A stretch of DNA of 64,000 nt. It comes from Desulfocapsaceae bacterium (lineage in GTDB: Bacteria > Desulfobacterota > Desulfobulbia > Desulfobulbales > Desulfocapsaceae). The notes below the pieces were generated by a model. That model was given only the letters and a program-made list of their open reading frames with translations, was not told where the DNA came from and did not search any database. Below are positions 4,347 through 45,855 of this stretch, one piece after another. Numbering within the stretch: position 1 is the first letter of the stretch; each line of letters begins with the position of its first letter. The position numbers and the translations under genes were made by a program. The stretch lies in the NCBI GenBank assembly GCA_031292275.1, contig JARLHL010000061.1, forward strand, positions 1-64,000, written 5' to 3'.

Positions 4347-6899
4347 TCAGATCCCAAGCAGCGCATATACCCGATCCATGTCCAGCCCTTTCCGGACGGT
4401 ATCCGCCAGCCGGTCGAAGGCCGGGTCAAGATCATAGGAGGCAACGACCCGACCGTCGCAGGCAAGCCCGGCCCGTCGTTTCAGCCTATCGATAAACCAG
4501 CGGCGGAAGACATCGGCATCGAAGATCCCGTGCAGATAGGTCCCCCAGATGCGGCCAGCGGCGGAACCGCAGTGGGTCCCGTCCCGGAAGGTAAGGACCG
4601 GGGGCAGAGAGGAGGTTGAGATGCCGTGATGAATCTCATAGCCATGGACGGTCTGTCCCGATTCCAGATGGATGCCCTCCTGACGCACCAGCCTTTTTTT
4701 CTTTTCCAGCCTGGTAATCACATCAAGCAGGGCCAGGCCTACGATATCACCCTTGTCGGATTCGATGGAATGCGGGTCCTCCACCCGCCTGCCGAGGATC
4801 TGATAGCCGCCGCAAAGGCCGACGATCTCGCAGCCCTCCCGGCCCAGCGCAGCGATAGCTTCCGCCAGACCGCCTTCCTGCAGGGCCTTCAGGTCGCCGA
4901 TGACATTCTTTGAACCGGGGATGATGACGGCATCAGGCCGCCCCAGATCCCTGGGATGGGAAACCACCCGCAGATGGACGTCGGGCTCGGCGATAAAGGG
5001 CTCGATATCGGTGAAGTTGGAGATGTGCGGCAGACTGATCAGGACGATATCGACATGGGGACATGCCGGTTTTGCAGCCTCGAAGAGACCGTTCTTGAAG
5101 GAGACAGAATCCTCCTCCGGGATCCCCAGATCATGCAGGTAGGGCACGACTCCGAAGACCTCCCTGCCGGTATGCGATTGCACGTACCGATGGGCGGACT
5201 CAAGCAGCGAGGCCTGGCCGCGGAAGCGGTTGACGATAAAGCCGGCAATCAGATTCCGCTCCCATTCCGCCAGCACCTCCATGGTCCCGACAAAGGAGGC
5301 GTACACCCCTCCGCGGTCGATATCCCCCACCAGCAGCACTGGGGAATTGGCATACTGGGCCATCCGCATGTTGACGATATCATGGTGTTTCAGATTCACC
5401 TCTCCCGGAGAGCCCGCACCTTCAAGGAGCACTGCGTCATATTCGGCCGCCAGTTCGTCATAGCTGGCGCAGGCGGCCTCCCAGGCCGTAGCCTTATACG
5501 CGACATATTCCATGACCGACATATTGCCGACCGGAAGCCCCCTCACGATGATCTGGCTGCCGGTATCCGAGTTCGGCTTCAGCAGTACGGGATTCATCCG
5601 CACGTCGGGATCAAGCCGGGCAGCCTGGGCCTGGACCACCTGGGCCCGCCCCATCTCCAGGCCATCCAGGGTGACAAAGGAGTTTAACGACATGTTCTGG
5701 GCCTTGAAAGGTGCCACCCGCACGCCGTCCTGCAGCAGGATCCGGCAGAGGGCGGTGACCATCACCGACTTCCCGGCATTGGAGGAGGTGCCTTGGATCA
5801 TTAGGGCCGGGGTTTTCCTGATTTTTTTAACCGATGGGCGATCTTTGTTCAGGATCTTCTCCATGGCCTCCACCAGCTTCCTGTTTTCGTCCCGGGTCCG
5901 GACGGCCACCCGGCAATAGGAATCATCCAGGCCCTGGTAGTTGGCACAGACCCGGATGGCAATGCCCTCAGACAGCAGTTTCTCGGCCACCTCCCCTGCC
6001 CCTCTGCCATTCAGCAGCCGCAGGAGCAGGTAGTTAGCAGCGGATGCAAACACCTTCAAGGCAGGAATCCTGCCGAGGGCTGACTGCAGTTCCAGGCGCA
6101 GGCTGCGGCACAGGGCCACCGATTCCTGCCGGTACTGCACATCATCGAAGACCTGTTCGCCGACGGCCTGGGCCAGACTGTTGACCGTCCATGGCGGCAT
6201 GATATCGCGCAGCGCCTGCGCAAACTCCGGGGCAAAGACGCCAAATCCCAGCCGCAGGCCGGGAATTGCATAAAACTTGGTCAGGGAATGCAGTGTAACG
6301 ATGTTGGCGGCCTTCCCCGCCAGGCTTTTCCCGTCTTCAACAAAATCAAGGAAGGCCTCGTCGACAATAAAGACGGTGCGGGGAAAATCGACGGCCATTT
6401 GCAGGATGCAGTCCGGGTCCACCACCTTGCCCGTGGGATTATTGGGCGTGCCGATCACCACAATCTCATCGCCCTTGAGCAACCGGGCCAGAGTGCGGGG
6501 ATCGAAGCAGAACTCCTTGTCTGGCAAGAGCAGGAACGGCTCCACGGCAATGTCGGCCATGTGCATCACCCTGGCATAATCGACATAGGACGGCACCGGG
6601 ATAATGGCCCGATTTCGCTGCAATACCGCAGGAAGATGATAGAGGAGTTCAGTCGTGCCGTTGGCGGGAACAATGGTTTCGGGAGGAATCTGATAAAAGG
6701 AGGCGATGGCCCCCACCAGATCGTGGCACTCCGGGTCGGGATAGTGCACCAGATTTTCAATGCTGCGGCTGATGGTCGCACGCAGCCATTCCGGCGGGCC
6801 TAGCGGGTTGATATTGGCGCTGAAATCGATGATCTTCCGGGAACCGGGATTCTGGCGGGCCAACTTGTGGATATTGCCGCCATGGGTCTGCATTTCCAT
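4347..6899 (-). CDS. cobD/cobQ: Fused L-threonine-phosphate decarboxylase (CobD) and cobyric acid synthase (CobQ/CbiP)
   Basis: One reading frame of 850 residues joins two cobalamin enzymes. Residues 1-350 are a fold-type I PLP enzyme like CobD, with [19 protein letters not shown] and the PLP lysine in [18 protein letters not shown] (about K208). This half should make aminopropanol phosphate. Residues 365-850 are CobQ, the adenosylcobyrate synthase, with P-loop [11 protein letters not shown], catalytic Cys in [13 protein letters not shown] and the His element in YEIHHG. A short basic linker ([13 protein letters not shown]) joins them. The frame is open upstream to 6968, but those 23 codons come from a dispersed repeat; MEMQTHGGN at 6899 is the natural CobD-like start. 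No strong ribosome site is visible. Confidence 0.95.
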
Positions 6900-6908
6900 A
6901 GTAATCCG

Positions 6909-7006
6909 TTTTATATGAAAGCTCTGCAGAAACAGCGGCCTTGCGATGCTGAAACGACGAGCTTTCATGTTTCGTTATGAGCCTGGTCCAGCCATGCCGG
7001 TTAGAG
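6909..7006 (-). repeat. Dispersed intergenic repeat, copy 3 (upstream of cobD-cobQ)
   Basis: Among the best-preserved copies. Leftward it reads CCGGCATGGCTGGACCAG, then the 59-bp module with perfect arms ATGAAAGCTC and GAGCTTTCAT and the end TATAAA. The 5' hairpin is shortened. The element ends 9 nt before the chosen start of cobD-cobQ. Its ATG is in frame with that gene, which produces the spurious extension [13 protein letters not shown]. Confidence 0.85.
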
Positions 7007-8947: not shown

Positions 8948-9511
8948 TTAAATATTGCCAGTGAGCGGCAGCTGTCCTTTCAACTGCAGCGGCAGGCCGC
9001 AGCTCACCAAAACAACTTCTGCCGCCGCCCGGGCGATGGTCTGATTGCAGCGGCCTACCAGATCCCTGTAGAGACGGGCGGAGGGATTCTCCGGTACGAT
9101 TCCCATTCCCACCTCGTTGGTCACGCAGATGGTCGTCCCCGGGTAGGCAACCGTCTTGTCTATGAAGGCCTCACAATAACCCCGTATCCCGTTTTCCGTC
9201 AAGACCCCGCCGGCCTGCTCCTCCCTGAAGAGCAGATTGTTGACCCAAAGCGTCAGACAATCGATCAGACAGACCCTCCCATCCTCCAGACGGTCAAAGA
9301 CACTGCAGAGGTCGGTCTCCTCTTCAATGGTTCGCCATACGCCATCGGCCCTGGACTGCTGATGCCGGACTATCCGGGCGTCCATCTCAGGATCAATTTT
9401 CGGGCAGGTTGCGATAAAATACCGCGGTCCCGGCAGTGATTCGGCCAGACTCTGGGCAAATCCGCTCTTCCCGCTTCTGCTCCCTCCGGTCACAAGAATA
9501 AGTTTTCCCAT
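8948..9511 (-). CDS. cobU: Adenosylcobinamide kinase / adenosylcobinamide-phosphate guanylyltransferase
   Basis: The 187-residue bifunctional CobU phosphorylates adenosylcobinamide and then transfers GMP to it. The P-loop is [12 protein letters not shown] at residues 9-20, followed by RYFIATCP and IVRHQQSR, the CobU region holding the guanylylated His, and [13 protein letters not shown]. Length is standard. Its ATG overlaps the cobC stop codon (TAATG), so translation is coupled; GGGAGGGG upstream is the ribosome site. cobT follows after 16 nt. Confidence 0.96.
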
Positions 9512-10095
9512 TACCGCAGCCCCTCCCTGTTCAAACCCGTCAAGACCCCGCCCTGAGAAAAGCAGTTCACGGTGGTAAGCCGAGCCTCCCGGATCTCGAA
9601 AAGGAGATAACTCTCAAAGGAAAGCCCCAGGAGCACGCAGATCAGATGTCGGATCACCCCCGCATGGGAGATAATCAGGGCCTTCTCGCCTTGCAGGCGC
9701 TGCAGTGACAGGTTGAACCGTTCAAGCCTGTCGATGAAATCCTGGCGGCATTCGCCTCCGGGAAAACAGAACCCTGCGGGGTCCTCAATCCAGCGCCTAA
9801 GATTTTCCGGATCCGACTCCTCGATCTCAGCTATATTCCTGGTCTCCCAGAGGCCGAAATCTATCTCCCGCAAATCATCAACCAGGGTGACGTCAAGCCC
9901 CAGCAGTTCTGCTGTCTGTCTGCAGCGGTGCATGGGGCTGCAGAGGATGCGGTCAAAATCCTCCCCTGCCAGCACAGGCCGCAGCGACCGGACCTGCTCA
10001 ATTCCCGCGGCATCAAGTTCAATGTCGGTTGCACCGACATACCTTCCGGCCAGGGCGGTCCTGCCGTGACGTAAGAGAACCAGATTGGATACCAT
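9511..10095 (-). CDS. cobC: Histidine phosphatase, probable alpha-ribazole phosphatase
   Basis: A 194-residue member of the phosphoglycerate-mutase-like histidine phosphatases. The catalytic His is in [15 protein letters not shown], followed by [15 protein letters not shown]; the second histidine lies in [13 protein letters not shown]. Alpha-ribazole phosphatase (CobC) is the likely role because it leads cobU-cobT-cobS, but the fold alone does not prove the substrate. The frame is open to 10170, yet those 25 codons lie in a dispersed repeat; the ATG at 10095 has AGGGGAAGG before it and gives the usual start [11 protein letters not shown]. Confidence 0.88.
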
Positions 10096-10110
10096 CAACC
10101 TTCCCCTGCT

Positions 10111-10210
10111 GTTTCTATGAAAGCCTCGTTTGAGTGGCGGCCCTGCCATATTGAAATGACGAGCTTTCATGTTTTGTTATGGCCGGCCGGCTTGTTCCAG
10201 CCATGCTTGT
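10111..10210 (-). repeat. Dispersed intergenic repeat, copy 4 (upstream of cobC)
   Basis: Leftward, with hairpin GGCTGG/CCGGCC and a 59-bp module running from ATGAAAGCTC to GGCTTTCATAGAAA. It ends 15 nt before the cobC start codon. As in copy 3, its ATG is in frame with the gene and extends the open frame artificially. Bases 10211-10260 may hold a further degenerate fragment (GTGAAAGTC, AACCAGCCTGAAC). Confidence 0.8.
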
Positions 10211-10307
10211 TTCCGTGAAAGTCTTTCTTTGCCACATTGAACCAGCCTGAACAAAAAGCCATTCGGAGTATGTTCAGACTGGCACAGCCCGGTTTGGGAC
10301 CTGCCGG

Positions 10308-14832: not shown

Positions 14833-14857
14833 GATGACTCAATGCATTGTTAATAAT

Positions 14858-14950
14858 TTATATAAAAACTCCCCGGAAGCCGGGCTCCGGCCATGCCGGG
14901 TGAGACGCTTTCATTTCTCGGCGTGGCCGGCCAATACGGTCCATCCATCT
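14858..14950 (-). repeat. Dispersed intergenic repeat, copy 5 (upstream of the YcaO gene)
   Basis: Leftward, 58-bp form, from ATGAAAGCGT to TTTTTATATAAA. The arms are less complementary than in other copies, and the interior holds a GC-rich hairpin of its own (CCGGC...GCCGG). The proximal end is 25 nt from the YcaO gene start. The rest of the gap (14951-15095) shows no gene. Confidence 0.7.
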
Positions 14951-15095
14951 CGCTTAATTACAAAAGATGACAAAAAAATTCAACCAGCTGCAGCGGATTC
15001 TGTATAAGAGACGTCGAAAGAAGGCGAATCCGACGCAGGATACCCGGGAATCAGGGATTTGAAAACCTGCTAAGAATCCTTTTTTCGGATTTATC

Positions 15096-18266: not shown

Positions 18267-18345
18267 GTTATATGAAAGTCCCTCGCCAGGAGCAGCGGAC
18301 TTGCCTTTTCGAGGTGATCAACTCCCATCCTGCATTGCTGCAGGC
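18267..18345 (-). repeat. Dispersed intergenic repeat, copy 6 (upstream of ktrA)
   Basis: A partial leftward copy. The 3' part is well kept: AAGTCCGCTGCTCCTGGCGA and then ACTTTCATATAA, ending 12 nt before the ktrA start codon. The 5' arm no longer reads ATGAAAGC, and the first hairpin is replaced by a short CTGCAGCAATGCAG inverted repeat. Confidence 0.6.
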
Positions 18346-18361
18346 AGCCCGGGCGTACCGC

Positions 18362-19735
18362 TTAGCCGATCATCATATTTTCTTCCGAGTATTCCTTCCC
18401 GCTGACGGGTTCCGCTCCGACAATGATGTAGGAAAAGGTCAGAATACCCACCCTGCCGATGATCATAACCAGAACTATCCAACATTTATCCCACGTGGAC
18501 ATACTCGAGGTGATCCCCATCGACAGGCCAACCGTTCCAAAAGCCGAGACGGTCTCGAACAGATATTGCAGCGTGTGAATCTGGTTTTTCTCCCCCTGCG
18601 AATGGATGTACGAATCGCTGAACAAGAGCATGAACACCACCAGGCTGATAATGCAGGCAGCAATTAGAATCAACGACATGCTTCGTGTTACGGTTGCTTC
18701 GGGAATGCTTTTTTTGAACATATTGACCCGCTTCTTATGCCGTATACGACTGATGGTAAAAACCGTCAGAAGGGCCAGAGTGGTTGTCTTGACCCCGCCG
18801 CCGCAGGATCCGGGAGAGGCTCCGATAAACATCAGAAAGATCATCATCATGATGGTCACCTCTTTCAGCTGGGAGATATCAATGGTATTAAAACCGGCCG
18901 TACGGCAACTGACCGATTGAAACAACGGTATCAAAATATGCTCCGACATCGACTTATCCGCCAGAATCGGACTCTTGTACTCCAGAATTGCAAACAGGAC
19001 TGCCCCCCCCAGAATCAGGATGACAGTGGTCAGGAGAACACTTTTAGTCTGAACGGAGAGCCGCATCCTTTTTGTTTTCCTATACAGGAGCCAGGAATAC
19101 AGATCATAGACAACGGGAAAGCCTATGCCTCCGATGATTATGAGGGCGCAGATGGTGCAATTCAGCAGCCAACTGCCGCCATATCGTTCAAAACTATCCG
19201 GAAACAATGAAAATCCTGCATTACAAAACGCTGATACAGAATGGAAAATGCCGTTGTAGATCGCCCTGGACAGAGGCATTTCCCGGCACCAGTGGATGGT
19301 CAGCAGGATGGCTCCGGCAAGTTCTGTAGCCAGGGTGGAAATAATAACGCTTTTAACCAGCCTGTAAATGTCGTGGCGAGGTGTGTGGGTAAGCAGATCC
19401 TGCATAACCAGCCTGTGCCGAATGGAAACCGCGCGTCCGATCCAGGTAAAAAGCGCGACCGACACCGTCATCACTCCGAGCCCCCCCATCTGTATCAGGC
19501 CAAGGATTACCCATTGCCCGAAGATGGTGAAATACGAAGATGTATCGACAACTGCCAGACCGGTGACGCAGACTGCGGATGTTGCTGTGAACAAGGCGTC
19601 GATCCAGGAAATGGCTTCATCGACAGTGGAGATCCTCAACCTGAGCAGAAACGCTCCCAGGAAGATAAGAAGAAGAAAGCTGGAAAGAACGAGGACGGCA
19701 GGATGAATCTTCAGCATGCGGCTGCTTTTCTTCAT
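18362..19735 (-). CDS. ktrB: Potassium uptake transmembrane subunit (KtrB/TrkH)
   Basis: A 457-residue potassium translocating protein with four pore repeats. The selectivity-filter segments are visible in order: TSAVCVTGLAVVDTSSYF, SVSAFCNAGFSLF, SVSCRTAGFNTIDI and TVSAFGTVGLSMG, each with the conserved filter Gly. Length suits KtrB rather than the longer TrkH. Together with the downstream ktrA this makes a complete K+ uptake system, probably Na+-dependent. The start MKKSSRMLK is followed by the first membrane helix; MLKIHP is a close alternative. Confidence 0.93.
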   Translation of the reverse strand: MKKSSRMLKIHPAVLVLSSFLLLIFLGAFLLRLRISTVDEAISWIDALFTATSAVCVTGLAVVDTSSYFTIFGQWVILGLIQMGGLGVMTVSVALFTWIGRAVSIRHRLVMQDLLTHTPRHDIYRLVKSVIISTLATELAGAILLTIHWCREMPLSRAIYNGIFHSVSAFCNAGFSLFPDSFERYGGSWLLNCTICALIIIGGIGFPVVYDLYSWLLYRKTKRMRLSVQTKSVLLTTVILILGGAVLFAILEYKSPILADKSMSEHILIPLFQSVSCRTAGFNTIDISQLKEVTIMMMIFLMFIGASPGSCGGGVKTTTLALLTVFTISRIRHKKRVNMFKKSIPEATVTRSMSLILIAACIISLVVFMLLFSDSYIHSQGEKNQIHTLQYLFETVSAFGTVGLSMGITSSMSTWDKCWIVLVMIIGRVGILTFSYIIVGAEPVSGKEYSEENMMIG

Positions 19736-20187
19736 TGTACTGTCCTCATCATGAGTCAGGGCCCGACATCAGCAACGCACCTGGAATACGTCTGTTGAAA
19801 TGAAAAATCCATTCAGGCATAGTGACCTCCGGGCGACAAGGGGGAGGCCGTCAGACATGCAGCATCCGCAAATGTGCCGGCAGCATAAATCTACCTGATA
19901 CCACAAGGGAAAACATTTTGTTTATACACTAACTTTTCTTGATGGTCAATCAATCTGCCGGCCAGGAAAAGAACCAGAGGCCGACTGTGTTCAAAAAACC
20001 CGGAAAAATTTGCGCGCCTCTCTGCCTGAAACCGGCATGGCCGGAGCGTCCCTGCCGGTCAGAACAAAACTTGAAAGCATACCACTCCGTCAGGGCAAGG
20101 CCGCTGCTTCAGGAGAGCTTTCCGAATTTTTCAGAAATGCGCAAATGTGCGACCTTGCACTACGCCCAACGCATCATGCCACGCCCG
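19736..20187. other. Gap between ktrB and the binding-protein gene
   Basis: About 450 bases with no supported gene. It holds one rightward copy of the dispersed repeat (20032-20128). The remaining sequence shows no tRNA, terminator with T run, or recognisable regulatory site. The ktrB promoter must lie here or further right. Confidence 0.5.
20032..20128 (+). repeat. Dispersed intergenic repeat, copy 7
   Basis: Rightward copy: CCGGCATGGCCGGAGCG, then a 59-bp module starting TTGAAAGCAT with the core GCAAGGCCGCTGCTTC and ending GAGCTTTCC. The terminal TATAAA is lost. It lies between two leftward genes and is not before a rightward start codon. Confidence 0.7.
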
Positions 20188-22227: not shown

Positions 22228-23511
22228 ATGGGGAAAACCATAGCCCAAAAAATCTTCGCCTCGCATCTGCGGGATACACCGACTTCTGAGAATATGGTCC
22301 TTGACCTCGATGTGGTCCTCTGTCACGAAATCACCACCCCCATAGCCATTCTCGACCTGATGGAGAAAGGAATGGATCGTGTCTTCGATCCTGGCAAGAT
22401 TAAAGCCGTCATCGACCATGTCACTCCGGCCAAGGATTCGAAGACCGCAATGCAGGGCAAGATCATGCGCGACTGGGCCAAGAGACATGCCATCGTCGAT
22501 TTCTTCGATATCGGCAAAAATGGTGTCTGTCACGCACTTTTCCCAGAAAAAGGCTATATCCGACCGGGATATACAGTCATCATGGGAGACTCCCACACCT
22601 GCACCCATGGGGCATTCGGGGCCTTTGCGGCAGGGGTGGGCACCACCGATCTCGAGGTCGGCATCTACAAAGGCGTCTGCTCTTTCAGGTCTCCTGAGAC
22701 CATGAAAATTTCCCTTACGGGCAAACTCGGCACCGGCGTCACCGCCAAGGATGTCATCCTGGCGATCATTAAGAAAATCACCGTCAACGGCGCCACAGAC
22801 CGGATCATCGAGTTCGGAGGACCGCTCCTGGAGTCCCTGTCCATGGCCGCTCGGATGACCTTGTGCAATATGGCAATCGAGGCAGGCGGCACCAGCGGCA
22901 TCTGCCCTCCCGACCGGGTAACTGCGGAATTCTTATGGCCTTTCATTAAGGATGAATACAAAAATCTTGATGAAGCTGTCAATGATTTCAAAAAATGGCA
23001 CTCAGATTCCGACGCGGAGTATGTGGAGAGCCTGGAAATTGATGTCACCGCGCTGCCCCCCCAGGTGACCGTCAACTTCAAGCCCGATCAGGTCAGGGAT
23101 ATTACCGAGATGGAAGGAACACCGGTGGATCAGGTCTATATCGGATCATGCACCAACGGCCGGATAGAAGACCTGCGGGACGCAGCCAGGATTCTCAAGA
23201 ACAGGACCATTGCTGCCGGGGTGCGCGGCATTGTCACGCCGGCCACGCCTCTGGTTTATCAGATGGCGCTGCAAGAGGGGATCCTTGCGATCTTCATGGA
23301 CGCGGGCTTTTGCGTCCTCAACCCGACCTGCGGTGCCTGCTTGGGAATGAGTTCGGGGGTGCTGGCCGAAGGGGAGGTCTGCATTTCCACCACAAATCGG
23401 AATTTCAACGGACGGATGGGAAAGGGGGGCATGGTGCATCTGGCAAGCCCTTACTCTGCAGCCGCCGCTGCGGTGACCGGCGTCATCACCGATCCACGGA
23501 AATTTCTCTAA
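22228..23511 (+). CDS. leuC: 3-isopropylmalate dehydratase large subunit (LeuC/homoaconitase family)
   Basis: A 427-residue iron-sulfur aconitase-family protein. The cluster-binding cysteines are in YIGSCTNGRIEDL and NPTCGACLGM; GDSHTCTHGAFGAFAAGVGTTD and NRNFNGRMGKGG are also diagnostic. With LeuD it isomerises 2- and 3-isopropylmalate in leucine synthesis. The length fits the shorter bacterial/archaeal HacA-like class, which also includes homoaconitases, and no leuA or leuB is beside it, so the exact substrate is inferred. The ATG at 22228 has GGAG 7 nt upstream; the frame is open from 22177. Confidence 0.9.
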   Translation: MGKTIAQKIFASHLRDTPTSENMVLDLDVVLCHEITTPIAILDLMEKGMDRVFDPGKIKAVIDHVTPAKDSKTAMQGKIMRDWAKRHAIVDFFDIGKNGVCHALFPEKGYIRPGYTVIMGDSHTCTHGAFGAFAAGVGTTDLEVGIYKGVCSFRSPETMKISLTGKLGTGVTAKDVILAIIKKITVNGATDRIIEFGGPLLESLSMAARMTLCNMAIEAGGTSGICPPDRVTAEFLWPFIKDEYKNLDEAVNDFKKWHSDSDAEYVESLEIDVTALPPQVTVNFKPDQVRDITEMEGTPVDQVYIGSCTNGRIEDLRDAARILKNRTIAAGVRGIVTPATPLVYQMALQEGILAIFMDAGFCVLNPTCGACLGMSSGVLAEGEVCISTTNRNFNGRMGKGGMVHLASPYSAAAAAVTGVITDPRKFL

Positions 23512-23606
23512 CCGGCAAGACTGGACCAGACTATGCCAGCACAACCCGCTCTGGAAATTGCCCCTTAAGACCGACGCGGCACTGTAAACGGAGACTTTTC
23601 TGTAAA

Positions 23607-23704
23607 CCGGCGGGGCTGGAGCAGATATCAGCCACAACACATTTTGAAAGCTCTTCTCAGAGCATGGCAACAGACCAGCTTCGGGGGAGCTTTCAAGTAA
23701 ATTC
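23607..23704 (+). repeat. Dispersed intergenic repeat, copy 8 (upstream of leuD)
   Basis: Rightward, with hairpin GGCTG/CAGCC and the 58-bp form of the module. The arms are TTGAAAGCTC and GAGCTTTCAA: both ends differ from the consensus ATG/CAT but still pair perfectly, a compensatory change. It ends 14 nt before the leuD start codon. A second half copy (CCGGCAAGACTGGACCAG) lies at 23512-23546 directly after the leuC stop codon. Confidence 0.85.
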
Positions 23705-30703: not shown

Positions 30704-31504
30704 AAACAGTATTATTCAGAATAGCTGGCCGACTGCATTCTTGCAGGTACAGAAAGTCTTGTCAATCGGCAAATGGGTTCGCTTACGTAAATTGCATCTC
30801 TCGAATCCAGTCATTTTCCCCTTTTCCCAACCGCGCATCCTGCTTTGCAGCCCCCATCTTCACAGCGGCAAAGGCATGGATCAAGAGACCGGCCTGCACT
30901 CGGTCTTTATAGGGATTCCTCTTTCCTCATTTTGCTCTTTGATGTTCAATTCTGGCACCTCGTTTAGCACCAAATACGGACAGATCGCACAAATATCTTA
31001 ACAGATCAGTGTTATCCTCCTCAATAATGTTGATTTTTTTTGACAATTATAAGAAAAATCCCTATGCAATGAATAATATTTTTCTTATTGTAAATTTAAA
31101 TGAAGTCGTCGCAGGAGCAGCGGCCTCACCGTAACGGAGCGATTCGCTTTCATATTTTATTGCGGCTGGTCAGGCCTAGCTGAGCCAGGCTGGGTTAAGG
31201 CTGAACGGTGAGGAGCCTTATATGCTCTTCTGAGAAACAGTCCTGTACACTTTCTCTGTCCTTTCACAGGAATGATGACACGCCATGTTACTCTTATCGG
31301 GCGGTCTGTAATTCCCAATTGTCTCACAAATATAAAACTGAATTCAACAAGAAGATCGTTTCTGATCGTGAACCCCGCAGCCTTCCCTCTCTCGGCATTT
31401 TCATGGCAGTTATTTTTAGAGGACCAGGACAAAAATTGATACACCCGTTTCCCCACACGATTTGGATCGCCCCCCAGAGGTCAAACAGTTCCAGGTTGAG
31501 GTAG
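30704..31504. other. Long intergenic region before the hybrid kinase gene
   Basis: About 800 bases without a supported gene. It contains one dispersed repeat copy (31092-31195), an AT-rich 11-bp inverted repeat (ATAAGAAAAAT at 31049-31059 with its complement at 31078-31088), and a perfect -35-like TTGACA at 31040-31045 followed 17 nt later by TATGCA. The last could drive the kinase gene with a leader of about 430 nt. No tRNA or terminator with a T run was seen. Confidence 0.45.
31092..31195 (-). repeat. Dispersed intergenic repeat, copy 9
   Basis: Leftward copy. The hairpin region reads GGCCTGACCAGCC, then a 59-bp module ATGAAAGCGA ... GTGAGGCCGCTGCTCC ... CGACTTCATTTAAA. The arms are no longer fully complementary. 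It is about 410 nt upstream of the zinc-ribbon gene start, so not gene-proximal. Confidence 0.75.
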
Positions 31505-40510: not shown

Positions 40511-40554
40511 CGCCTCCCCGCAATATCACAGGGAGAATGCAGCTTCATATCAAC

Positions 40555-40653
40555 CAGGACGGCTGGACCATACCGGCCAGCCTCAACAGTCTCTTAAAAC
40601 TCGTCACACAGGCATGACAAGACCGCTACTCAATCAAGGCCTTCATATAAATT
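40555..40653 (+). repeat. Dispersed intergenic repeat, copy 10
   Basis: Rightward, with an intact first hairpin GGCTGG/CCAGCC (CTGGACCATACCGGCCAG inside) and a 58-bp module with weak arms ending CTTCATATAAA. It lies between ung and nadD, both leftward, and its distal end covers the nadD stop codon. Confidence 0.7.
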
Positions 40654-45396: not shown

Positions 45397-45708
45397 TCAA
45401 GCCATAATCTCTTGTATTTTCAAAGCAGTATATGACTGTCTATGGCCGTTTTTCAACCGATAACCTTTTCTTCGCTTCTTTTTGAAAATGATGACCTTCT
45501 TTGCTCGCCCCTGCTCGGCAATGGTGGCAACGACCTTTGCATTCGCTACTAATGGCTGCCCGATAGTGACATTTCCTTCGTCTGCTACCAGCAATACATC
45601 ATTGAGTTCAACGGTATCACCAACATTCCCGTTCAACTTCTCAACTCGTAATTGATCGCCACTGGTAACCTGGTACTGTTTCCCTCCAGTACGAACTATA
45701 GCATACAT
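45397..45708 (-). CDS. rplU: 50S ribosomal protein L21
   Basis: A 103-residue protein with MYAIVRTGGKQYQVTSGDQL at the N terminus and the basic KKVIIFKKKRRKGYRLKNGHRQ segment, both diagnostic of L21, ending with the usual lysine-poor tail IQEIMA. It is the first gene of the operon. A dispersed repeat copy lies 42 nt upstream, and a possible -35 TTGACA is at 45902-45907 on the minus strand, with TATAAA 22 nt further (poor spacing). Confidence 0.98.
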   Translation of the reverse strand: MYAIVRTGGKQYQVTSGDQLRVEKLNGNVGDTVELNDVLLVADEGNVTIGQPLVANAKVVATIAEQGRAKKVIIFKKKRRKGYRLKNGHRQSYTALKIQEIMA

Positions 45709-45750: not shown

Positions 45751-45855
45751 ATTTACATGAAAGCTCCGCAATACTGCGCTCCTGCGAGAGTAAAGAAAAA
45801 AACTTTCATGCTTCATTGTGGCTGACCAATCTGGTCCAGTCATACCGGATGGCAG
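45751..45855 (-). repeat. Dispersed intergenic repeat, copy 11 (upstream of rplU)
   Basis: Leftward, with the first hairpin GACCA/TGGTC and a 58-bp module from ATGAAAGTTT to GAGCTTTCATGTAAA; the changed arm base is kept paired as G-U. The frame begun at its ATG closes at the TAA after 18 codons (MKVFFFTLAG...). It is 42 nt from the rplU start codon. Confidence 0.8.

Follow-up and report, generated by a model that had tools for sequence, protein, structure and literature searches.

A short two-hairpin repeat of the Desulfobulbia that is probably a non-autonomous mobile DNA element

ERIC and its kin are enterobacterial intergenic repeat units of approximately 100-170 bp with hairpin potential. 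Bacterial MITEs, among them Chunjie of Geobacter, Correia/NEMIS and RUP, are small non-autonomous mobile intergenic repeats, some of them located in operons, which carry inverted repeats at their termini and are flanked by target duplications. The REP, BIME and REPIN sequences that go with TnpAREP (RAYT) are present as hundreds of intergenic hairpin copies and are patchy between species, with copies that decay and recent bursts in some genomes. IS200/IS605 elements lack inverted repeats, produce no duplication, insert 3' of a tetra- or pentanucleotide and carry subterminal hairpins (PMC7290912, PMC6006769), and PATEs are derivatives of these elements that consist of the ends only.

The repeat described here forms a new family within an already familiar type of element, and its mover would be an unusual one. 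Its anatomy resembles that of the IS200/IS605-derived (PATE/REP) elements: as in PATEs, the unit is short, there is a hairpin near each end, inverted terminal repeats and target duplication are lacking, the target on the left appears to be fixed (here TTTA/TTTAT), and movement would be possible only in trans. It departs from PATEs in that no parental IS sharing its ends was found in any genome examined and its host genome has no Y1 gene; its two hairpins, H1 and H2, are also unlike each other both in size and in sequence, and it shows no replication-strand bias. It shares with REP, BIME and REPIN sequences the abundance of intergenic hairpins, the patchiness, the decay and the bursts, but it is approximately 100 bp long with two unlike hairpins, has neither a GTAG nor a CGTC tag, forms tandems that are head-to-tail rather than inverted pairs, and has no REPtron. 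It is comparable to MITEs in its small size, its presumed non-autonomous mobility and its intergenic sites, some in operons, but has neither their terminal inverted repeats nor their target duplications. It is similar to ERIC and the other enterobacterial units in size, hairpin potential, intergenic location and the lack of an assigned mover (PMC2759123), but its sequence is unrelated, and its TTTAT and GGTTA ends, its tandem habit and its host group are different. A review of prokaryotic MITEs gives the length of Chunjie as 235 bp (PMC10969869), and the excerpted passages of that review contain nothing of this kind for sulfate-reducing relatives; no description of the repeat, and no printed sequence of its ends in connection with this group, turned up in the open-access literature searched.

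The repeat is 94-103 bp long (approximately 100 bp) and is dispersed in at least 150 copies through a 4.14-Mb, 114-contig Desulfobulbales genome (G000). A covariance model built from 22 copies gave at least 150 matches in this genome, those listed all having E<=3e-7, and a pattern requiring exact arms occurs at 17 places compared to 0 for the reversed control, which together put the repeat far beyond chance. Aligned copies have approximately 100 positions in common and end abruptly: the left end is T-TTATATGAAAG, with T at 77% at position -1 and random composition at -2, and the right end is CCATGCTGGTT, past which, from position ~101 onwards, the alignment is random. The consensus ends are TTTAT on the left and GGTTA or GGTTTA on the right; there are no terminal inverted repeats, the ends TTTATATGAAAG and CCATGCTGGTTA being non-complementary, and with consensus ends of TTTAT and TTA the tetranucleotides GTAG and CGTC are absent from the foot of the palindrome. 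H1 adjoins the left end, with arms at positions 5-14 and 49-58, and H2 adjoins the right end, where GGCYGG at 69-74 faces CCRGCC at 85-90 and an alternative hairpin, CCAGC-CAT-GCTGG, overlaps it. The presence of a hairpin at both ends is backed by covariation in the case of H1 and, in the case of H2, by near invariance across genomes and by predicted folding; individual window copies folded as single-stranded DNA do only modestly better than shuffles (z from -0.5 to -2.1). Overlap with open reading frames is 0.24 compared to 0.83 for random places, so that the repeat is intergenic. Relative to the neighbouring genes it has no consistent orientation (45 copies antisense, 25 sense, 23 convergent and 21 divergent), the split of 45 to 25 amounting at most to a weak bias. 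All of the close pairs among the 150 matches listed, seven in number, are same-orientation tandems with a spacing of 94-100 bp, and no opposite-orientation neighbours within 130 bp were present in the subset of copies checked.

The copies in the window, that is, in the whole 64-kb stretch of DNA that was analysed, were located by pattern searches and by covariance-model searches with two models, R1 and R2. The copy in the leuC-leuD gap (copy A) lies on the minus strand at 23603-23701 (R2 61.5 bits, E=5.9e-15; R1 76.8 bits), very nearly the 23607-23704 at which the sequence-only reading had placed it; its left end, TTTAC, adjoins leuD, and its right end is GGTTTA. The arms which that reading had described are real: on the forward strand TTGAAAGCTC at 23644-23653 stands opposite GAGCTTTCAA at 23687-23696 in a perfect 10-bp stem, so that on the minus strand the left arm of H1 is TTGAAAGCTC at 23687-23696 and the right arm is GAGCTTTCAA at 23644-23653. 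Its H2, which has a GGCTG/CAGCC stem in the sequence and in the predicted fold, is located at 23614-23633 on the minus strand. A second and strongly diverged copy (copy B; 23508-23602, minus strand; R2 23.9 bits, E=9e-6, model positions 6-101) abuts copy A directly, head-to-tail.

The other copies include one at 434-534 on the minus strand with its 3' flank trimmed (R1 105.7 bits), where the site in the same-genus genome G001 is 112 bp shorter, and three on the plus strand which are absent from G001, at 1086-1186 (86.3 bits; syntenic place), at 6910-7003 upstream of the cobC/cobQ gene (98.6 bits) and at 10112-10212 (100.4 bits; syntenic place). On the plus strand there are also a diverged copy at 14857-14956 (66.1 bits), a degenerate copy at 18267-18364 (37.7 bits), a copy at 31095-31196 (85.4 bits) and a copy at 45752-45851 (82.3 bits), the last of which lies upstream of the 103-codon ORF 45397-45708, a putative rplU by its size and its earlier label, at a site approximately 96 bp shorter in G001; the remaining minus-strand copies are at 20029-20129 (88.5 bits) and 40551-40651 (80.5 bits). 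The pairing of AAAGT with ACTTT that had been reported for the copy at about 431 is present. The G-U ascribed to the putative rplU copy exists on the minus strand, and on the plus strand the same position is a C-A mismatch.

The repeat arm carries ATGAAAGC, which creates false in-frame starts on the minus strand at 6968 and 10170. The cobC/cobQ ORF (4347-6968) begins inside a repeat, whereas the alignment to its nearest homologues starts at residue ~29. Its product shares 81% identity with the protein of an uncultured delta proteobacterium bin (VK4_bin-1304), followed by those of Desulfobulbaceae and Desulfocapsa, which places the host in the Desulfobulbales. ORF 9511-10170 likewise begins inside a copy. 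Besides supplying false start codons to gene callers, the element lengthens operon spacers such as that between leuC and leuD.

Two genomes of the same genus, G001 and G002, have a clean empty site at leu: in them the leuC-leuD spacer is approximately 20 bp long and the ~190 bp found in the host genome (23512-23701) are missing. The insertion at this site is two head-to-tail copies, A and B, and not one. This is the sole empty site that is nearly base-exact, a TTA common to both sides leaving the cut ambiguous by a few bases; several other syntenic spacers are ~80-215 bp shorter in G001, in alignments too diverged for base-by-base junctions, and the models have no match in the syntenic 60-kb region of that genome. 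The copy number ranges from at least 150 in the host genome to 1 in G001 and 2 in G002, with 84 in G027, which belongs to another family. Class-wide the distribution is patchy: of 253 genomes 71 carry the repeat, and of 69 genera 30 do, which corresponds to about one in four of the sampled Desulfobulbia species. Conservation of the right end across families is very strong; as an exact 19-base string it was found in 24 of 258 genomes, compared to 0 for the reversed control. One exact 19-mer lies in a viral contig with no element visible around it; otherwise plasmids and phages gave no match.

In at least one other genome the spread is recent: the 11 copies of G093 are 98.9% identical over 97 bp, with flanks that are 28% identical, and the 11 left and 11 right ends all pair up. 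In G063 there are head-to-tail arrays in which TTTAT is common to each unit and the next. Some contigs of this genome end in such arrays, each with several copies (L353, L354, L360), and its copy numbers are probably underestimated because the assembly breaks at them. No target-site duplication was found at the element copies. TTTA stands at the left in 77 of the 150 copies of the host genome and TTTAT in 11 of the 11 copies of G093, the position of the cut being ambiguous through the common TTA.

The sequence-only reading had argued from paired changes in the leuD copy that base pairing is maintained, and had proposed a covariation analysis as the check, with a lack of significant covariation as evidence against its claim. 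When this check was run on 150 copies within the genome, using a home-made stand-in for R-scape with a null simulated along the tree of the copies (12 simulations), no arm pair beat the null (all E>=24; best pair 11:52, E=24), so that by its own yardstick the claim fails within this genome. Plain shuffling gives a weak excess at two pairs, 7:56 and 11:52 (P=0.002 and 0.0003, respectively), with 5:58 and 12:51 borderline. The leuD flip itself, from A-T to T-A at pair 5:58, does not bear the weight that had been placed on it: among 146 copies, 7 have T and 7 have A at the respective positions, the combination T-A is seen once with 0.3 expected by chance, and six other T copies keep a non-A partner while six A copies keep a non-T partner, which indicates that one-sided states are tolerated. 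ATGAAAGCTC and GAGCTTTCAT, the supposed arms of most copies, are exact on both sides in just 3 of 150. Within the genome the arms contain 377 substitutions, and 277 of 1200 pairs are broken, so that the copies decay through pair breakage. The only pairs above the tree-based null in the 150 copies lie inside the H1 loop, at 40-44 (C-G 74, T-A 44), 28-48 and 17-24 in positions of alignment A3, and may reflect subfamilies or a second small hairpin.

Between genomes the result is different, and it is here that the claim of maintained pairing holds. H1 is rebuilt in other letters, as AAAGTG/CACTTT, AAAATAGCC/GGCTATTTT and AAAGTCGCCCCGG/CCGGGGCGATTTT, the last with one G-T. At variable arm positions 57% of pairs are Watson-Crick compared to 40% when the arms are shuffled (P=0.0002; non-redundant n=29), and in a fixed cross-genome alignment the arms reach a covariation score of 0.150, compared to 0.093 +/- 0.011 for shuffled arms and at most 0.086 for shifted partners, a conservative score because several copies were left out of register; relatedness is removed only in part in these cross-genome tests. 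Since pairing is kept through different sequences between genomes and broken within one, what depends on base pairing is the element as a lineage and not each resident copy.

The pairing is more suggestive of DNA than of RNA. Over H1 pairs 5-11 there are 52 G-T and 56 A-C mismatches in the host genome; the cross-genome comparison gives 20 and 22 for non-redundant copies or 27 and 40 for all copies, with individual inner positions biased in either direction; such near-equal counts fit unselected decay or DNA structure, while an RNA read from one strand should favour G-U. The outer-arm counts, the mixed gene orientation, the patchy distribution and the sites that are empty in relatives all lead to the DNA reading. 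A structured conserved RNA, whether regulatory element or small RNA, with a fold under selection in each copy would account for the pairing kept across genomes and for intergenic copies just upstream of start codons, as at leuD and cobC/cobQ, but it would have to be reconciled with arm pairs that are not significant within the genome, mismatches that show no strand preference, genes that lie on either side in either orientation and relatives with empty sites, and it is highly improbable. Known RNA families were rejected as candidates, there being no Rfam match at gathering score in the window and nothing relevant at E<=1 at two other-genome loci. A no more credible alternative to mobility is a protein-binding or chromosome-architecture site of benefit to the host (cruciform, nucleoid, gyrase) that was spread by gene conversion. 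Binding of IHF, DNA polymerase I or gyrase is described for palindromic repeats between genes (PMC6006769), and the strong conservation of the right end would suit such a role, but the closest relatives live with 1-2 copies, the positions are empty in them, and the ends are sharp and set in target-like T-rich flanks, all of which argues for insertion rather than conserved positions.

The repeat is thus very probably a mobile but non-autonomous DNA element, 94-103 bp in length and with two hairpins, of which the stem at leuD is one part. This reading draws on the dispersal, the sharp ends, the intergenic location, the empty leu site, the patchy copy number, the lack of duplication and the recent copying, and further on the tandem pairs, the leu dimer, the G063 arrays, the covariation of the stem across genomes, the near-equal mismatch counts and the IS200/IS605-like anatomy; against it stand the absence of a Y1 gene from the host genome, the Y1 loci that lie apart from the element in other genomes, the even distribution over the replication strands, a nearly exact empty site at leu alone and the modest folding of the window copies. 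A trans-acting enzyme would recognize the hairpins, most simply on single-stranded DNA, cut beside a target resembling TTTA at the left end and at a similar TTA at the right end, and join the unit beside another TTTA. Because the right end TTTA equals the target, a copy ending in it would be a new target, which would explain tandem growth such as the leuC-leuD dimer. Stem pairing would be needed only in copies that move, so that source lineages would compensate while resident copies decay; compensatory changes among dispersed paralogous repeats can in general be mistaken for per-copy selection when they record the history of moving source copies.

The least certain part of the proposed mechanism is the enzyme, which may be a Y1 (HuH) transposase of the IS200/IS605-TnpAREP superfamily. 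Judged by the anatomy, the chance that the system works like a Y1-type one, a lost TnpAREP included, is put somewhat short of even, because no Y1 gene is present in the host genome (no Y1_Tnp match at E<=0.001), none is consistently linked elsewhere, and there is no replication-strand bias. In other genomes, 46 of the 47 Y1 loci examined have no element within ~1.5 kb, and no shared ends, hence no parental Y1 element, were found at the 47. The sole exception is a 327-aa Y1_Tnp gene in G027 that lies between two element copies (L319, 193-296 and 2177-2270). IS608-type elements are expected to show a replication-strand bias; by local GC skew none was found (72:77, 43:51, 36:44), with short contigs limiting the power of the comparison. 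Among the candidates rejected were an association with RAYT or Y1 genes, a lagging-strand bias, and longer autonomous relatives, the last since no transposase was seen by eye around right ends that have no obvious left hairpin (L272, L284, L285, L286, L293) and no end is unpaired in G093.

A REP/REPIN family mobilized by a TnpAREP (RAYT) since lost from the genome would explain the high copy number, the intergenic location and a hairpin whose foot is preceded on the 5' side by a short tag. The structures on either side of class 3 Y1 proteins have a CnGA foot (PMC6006769), with which the TTTAT-CTGA or CCGA that precedes the stem in many cross-genome copies may be compared, and the G027 gene between two copies points the same way. 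The family is nevertheless an unlikely one, given that the GTAG or CGTC tag is absent, neighbours are head-to-tail and not inverted, the two unlike hairpins keep a fixed order, 46 of 47 Y1 loci show no REPtron arrangement, and the genome with the most copies has no Y1 gene. Movement by a non-Y1 enzyme (rolling-circle Y2/Helitron-like, IS110-type, tyrosine recombinase or an undescribed system) is a tentative but appreciable possibility: no Y1 enzyme is linked, no strand bias is seen, tandem arrays are also expected from rolling-circle copying, and no longer autonomous relative emerged, all ends in G093 being paired. The apparently fixed TTTAT target, the lack of duplication and a hairpin close to either end are, however, IS200/IS605 traits, and the enzyme-family searches covered Y1 alone. 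The more specific proposal of a class-wide two-hairpin family of the Desulfobulbia, spread by a non-Y1 recombinase or copying mechanism with TTTAT targets and head-to-tail arrays, is rather doubtful.

What had been suspected to be a conserved RNA is accordingly better regarded as a probable mobile DNA element that makes up ~15 kb of the host genome, and the genomes with recent copies, G093 and G063, make the mobilizing enzyme directly testable. Nested repeats also occur: the small modules GAAGTCTACGCTTATCT and CGGAGTCTCCCTTCGGTCGCTTACC are found inside the element linker or the H2 loop in other genomes (L274, L275, L283, L299, L355), and L283 has three copies of CGGAGTCTCCCTTCGGTCGCTTACC.
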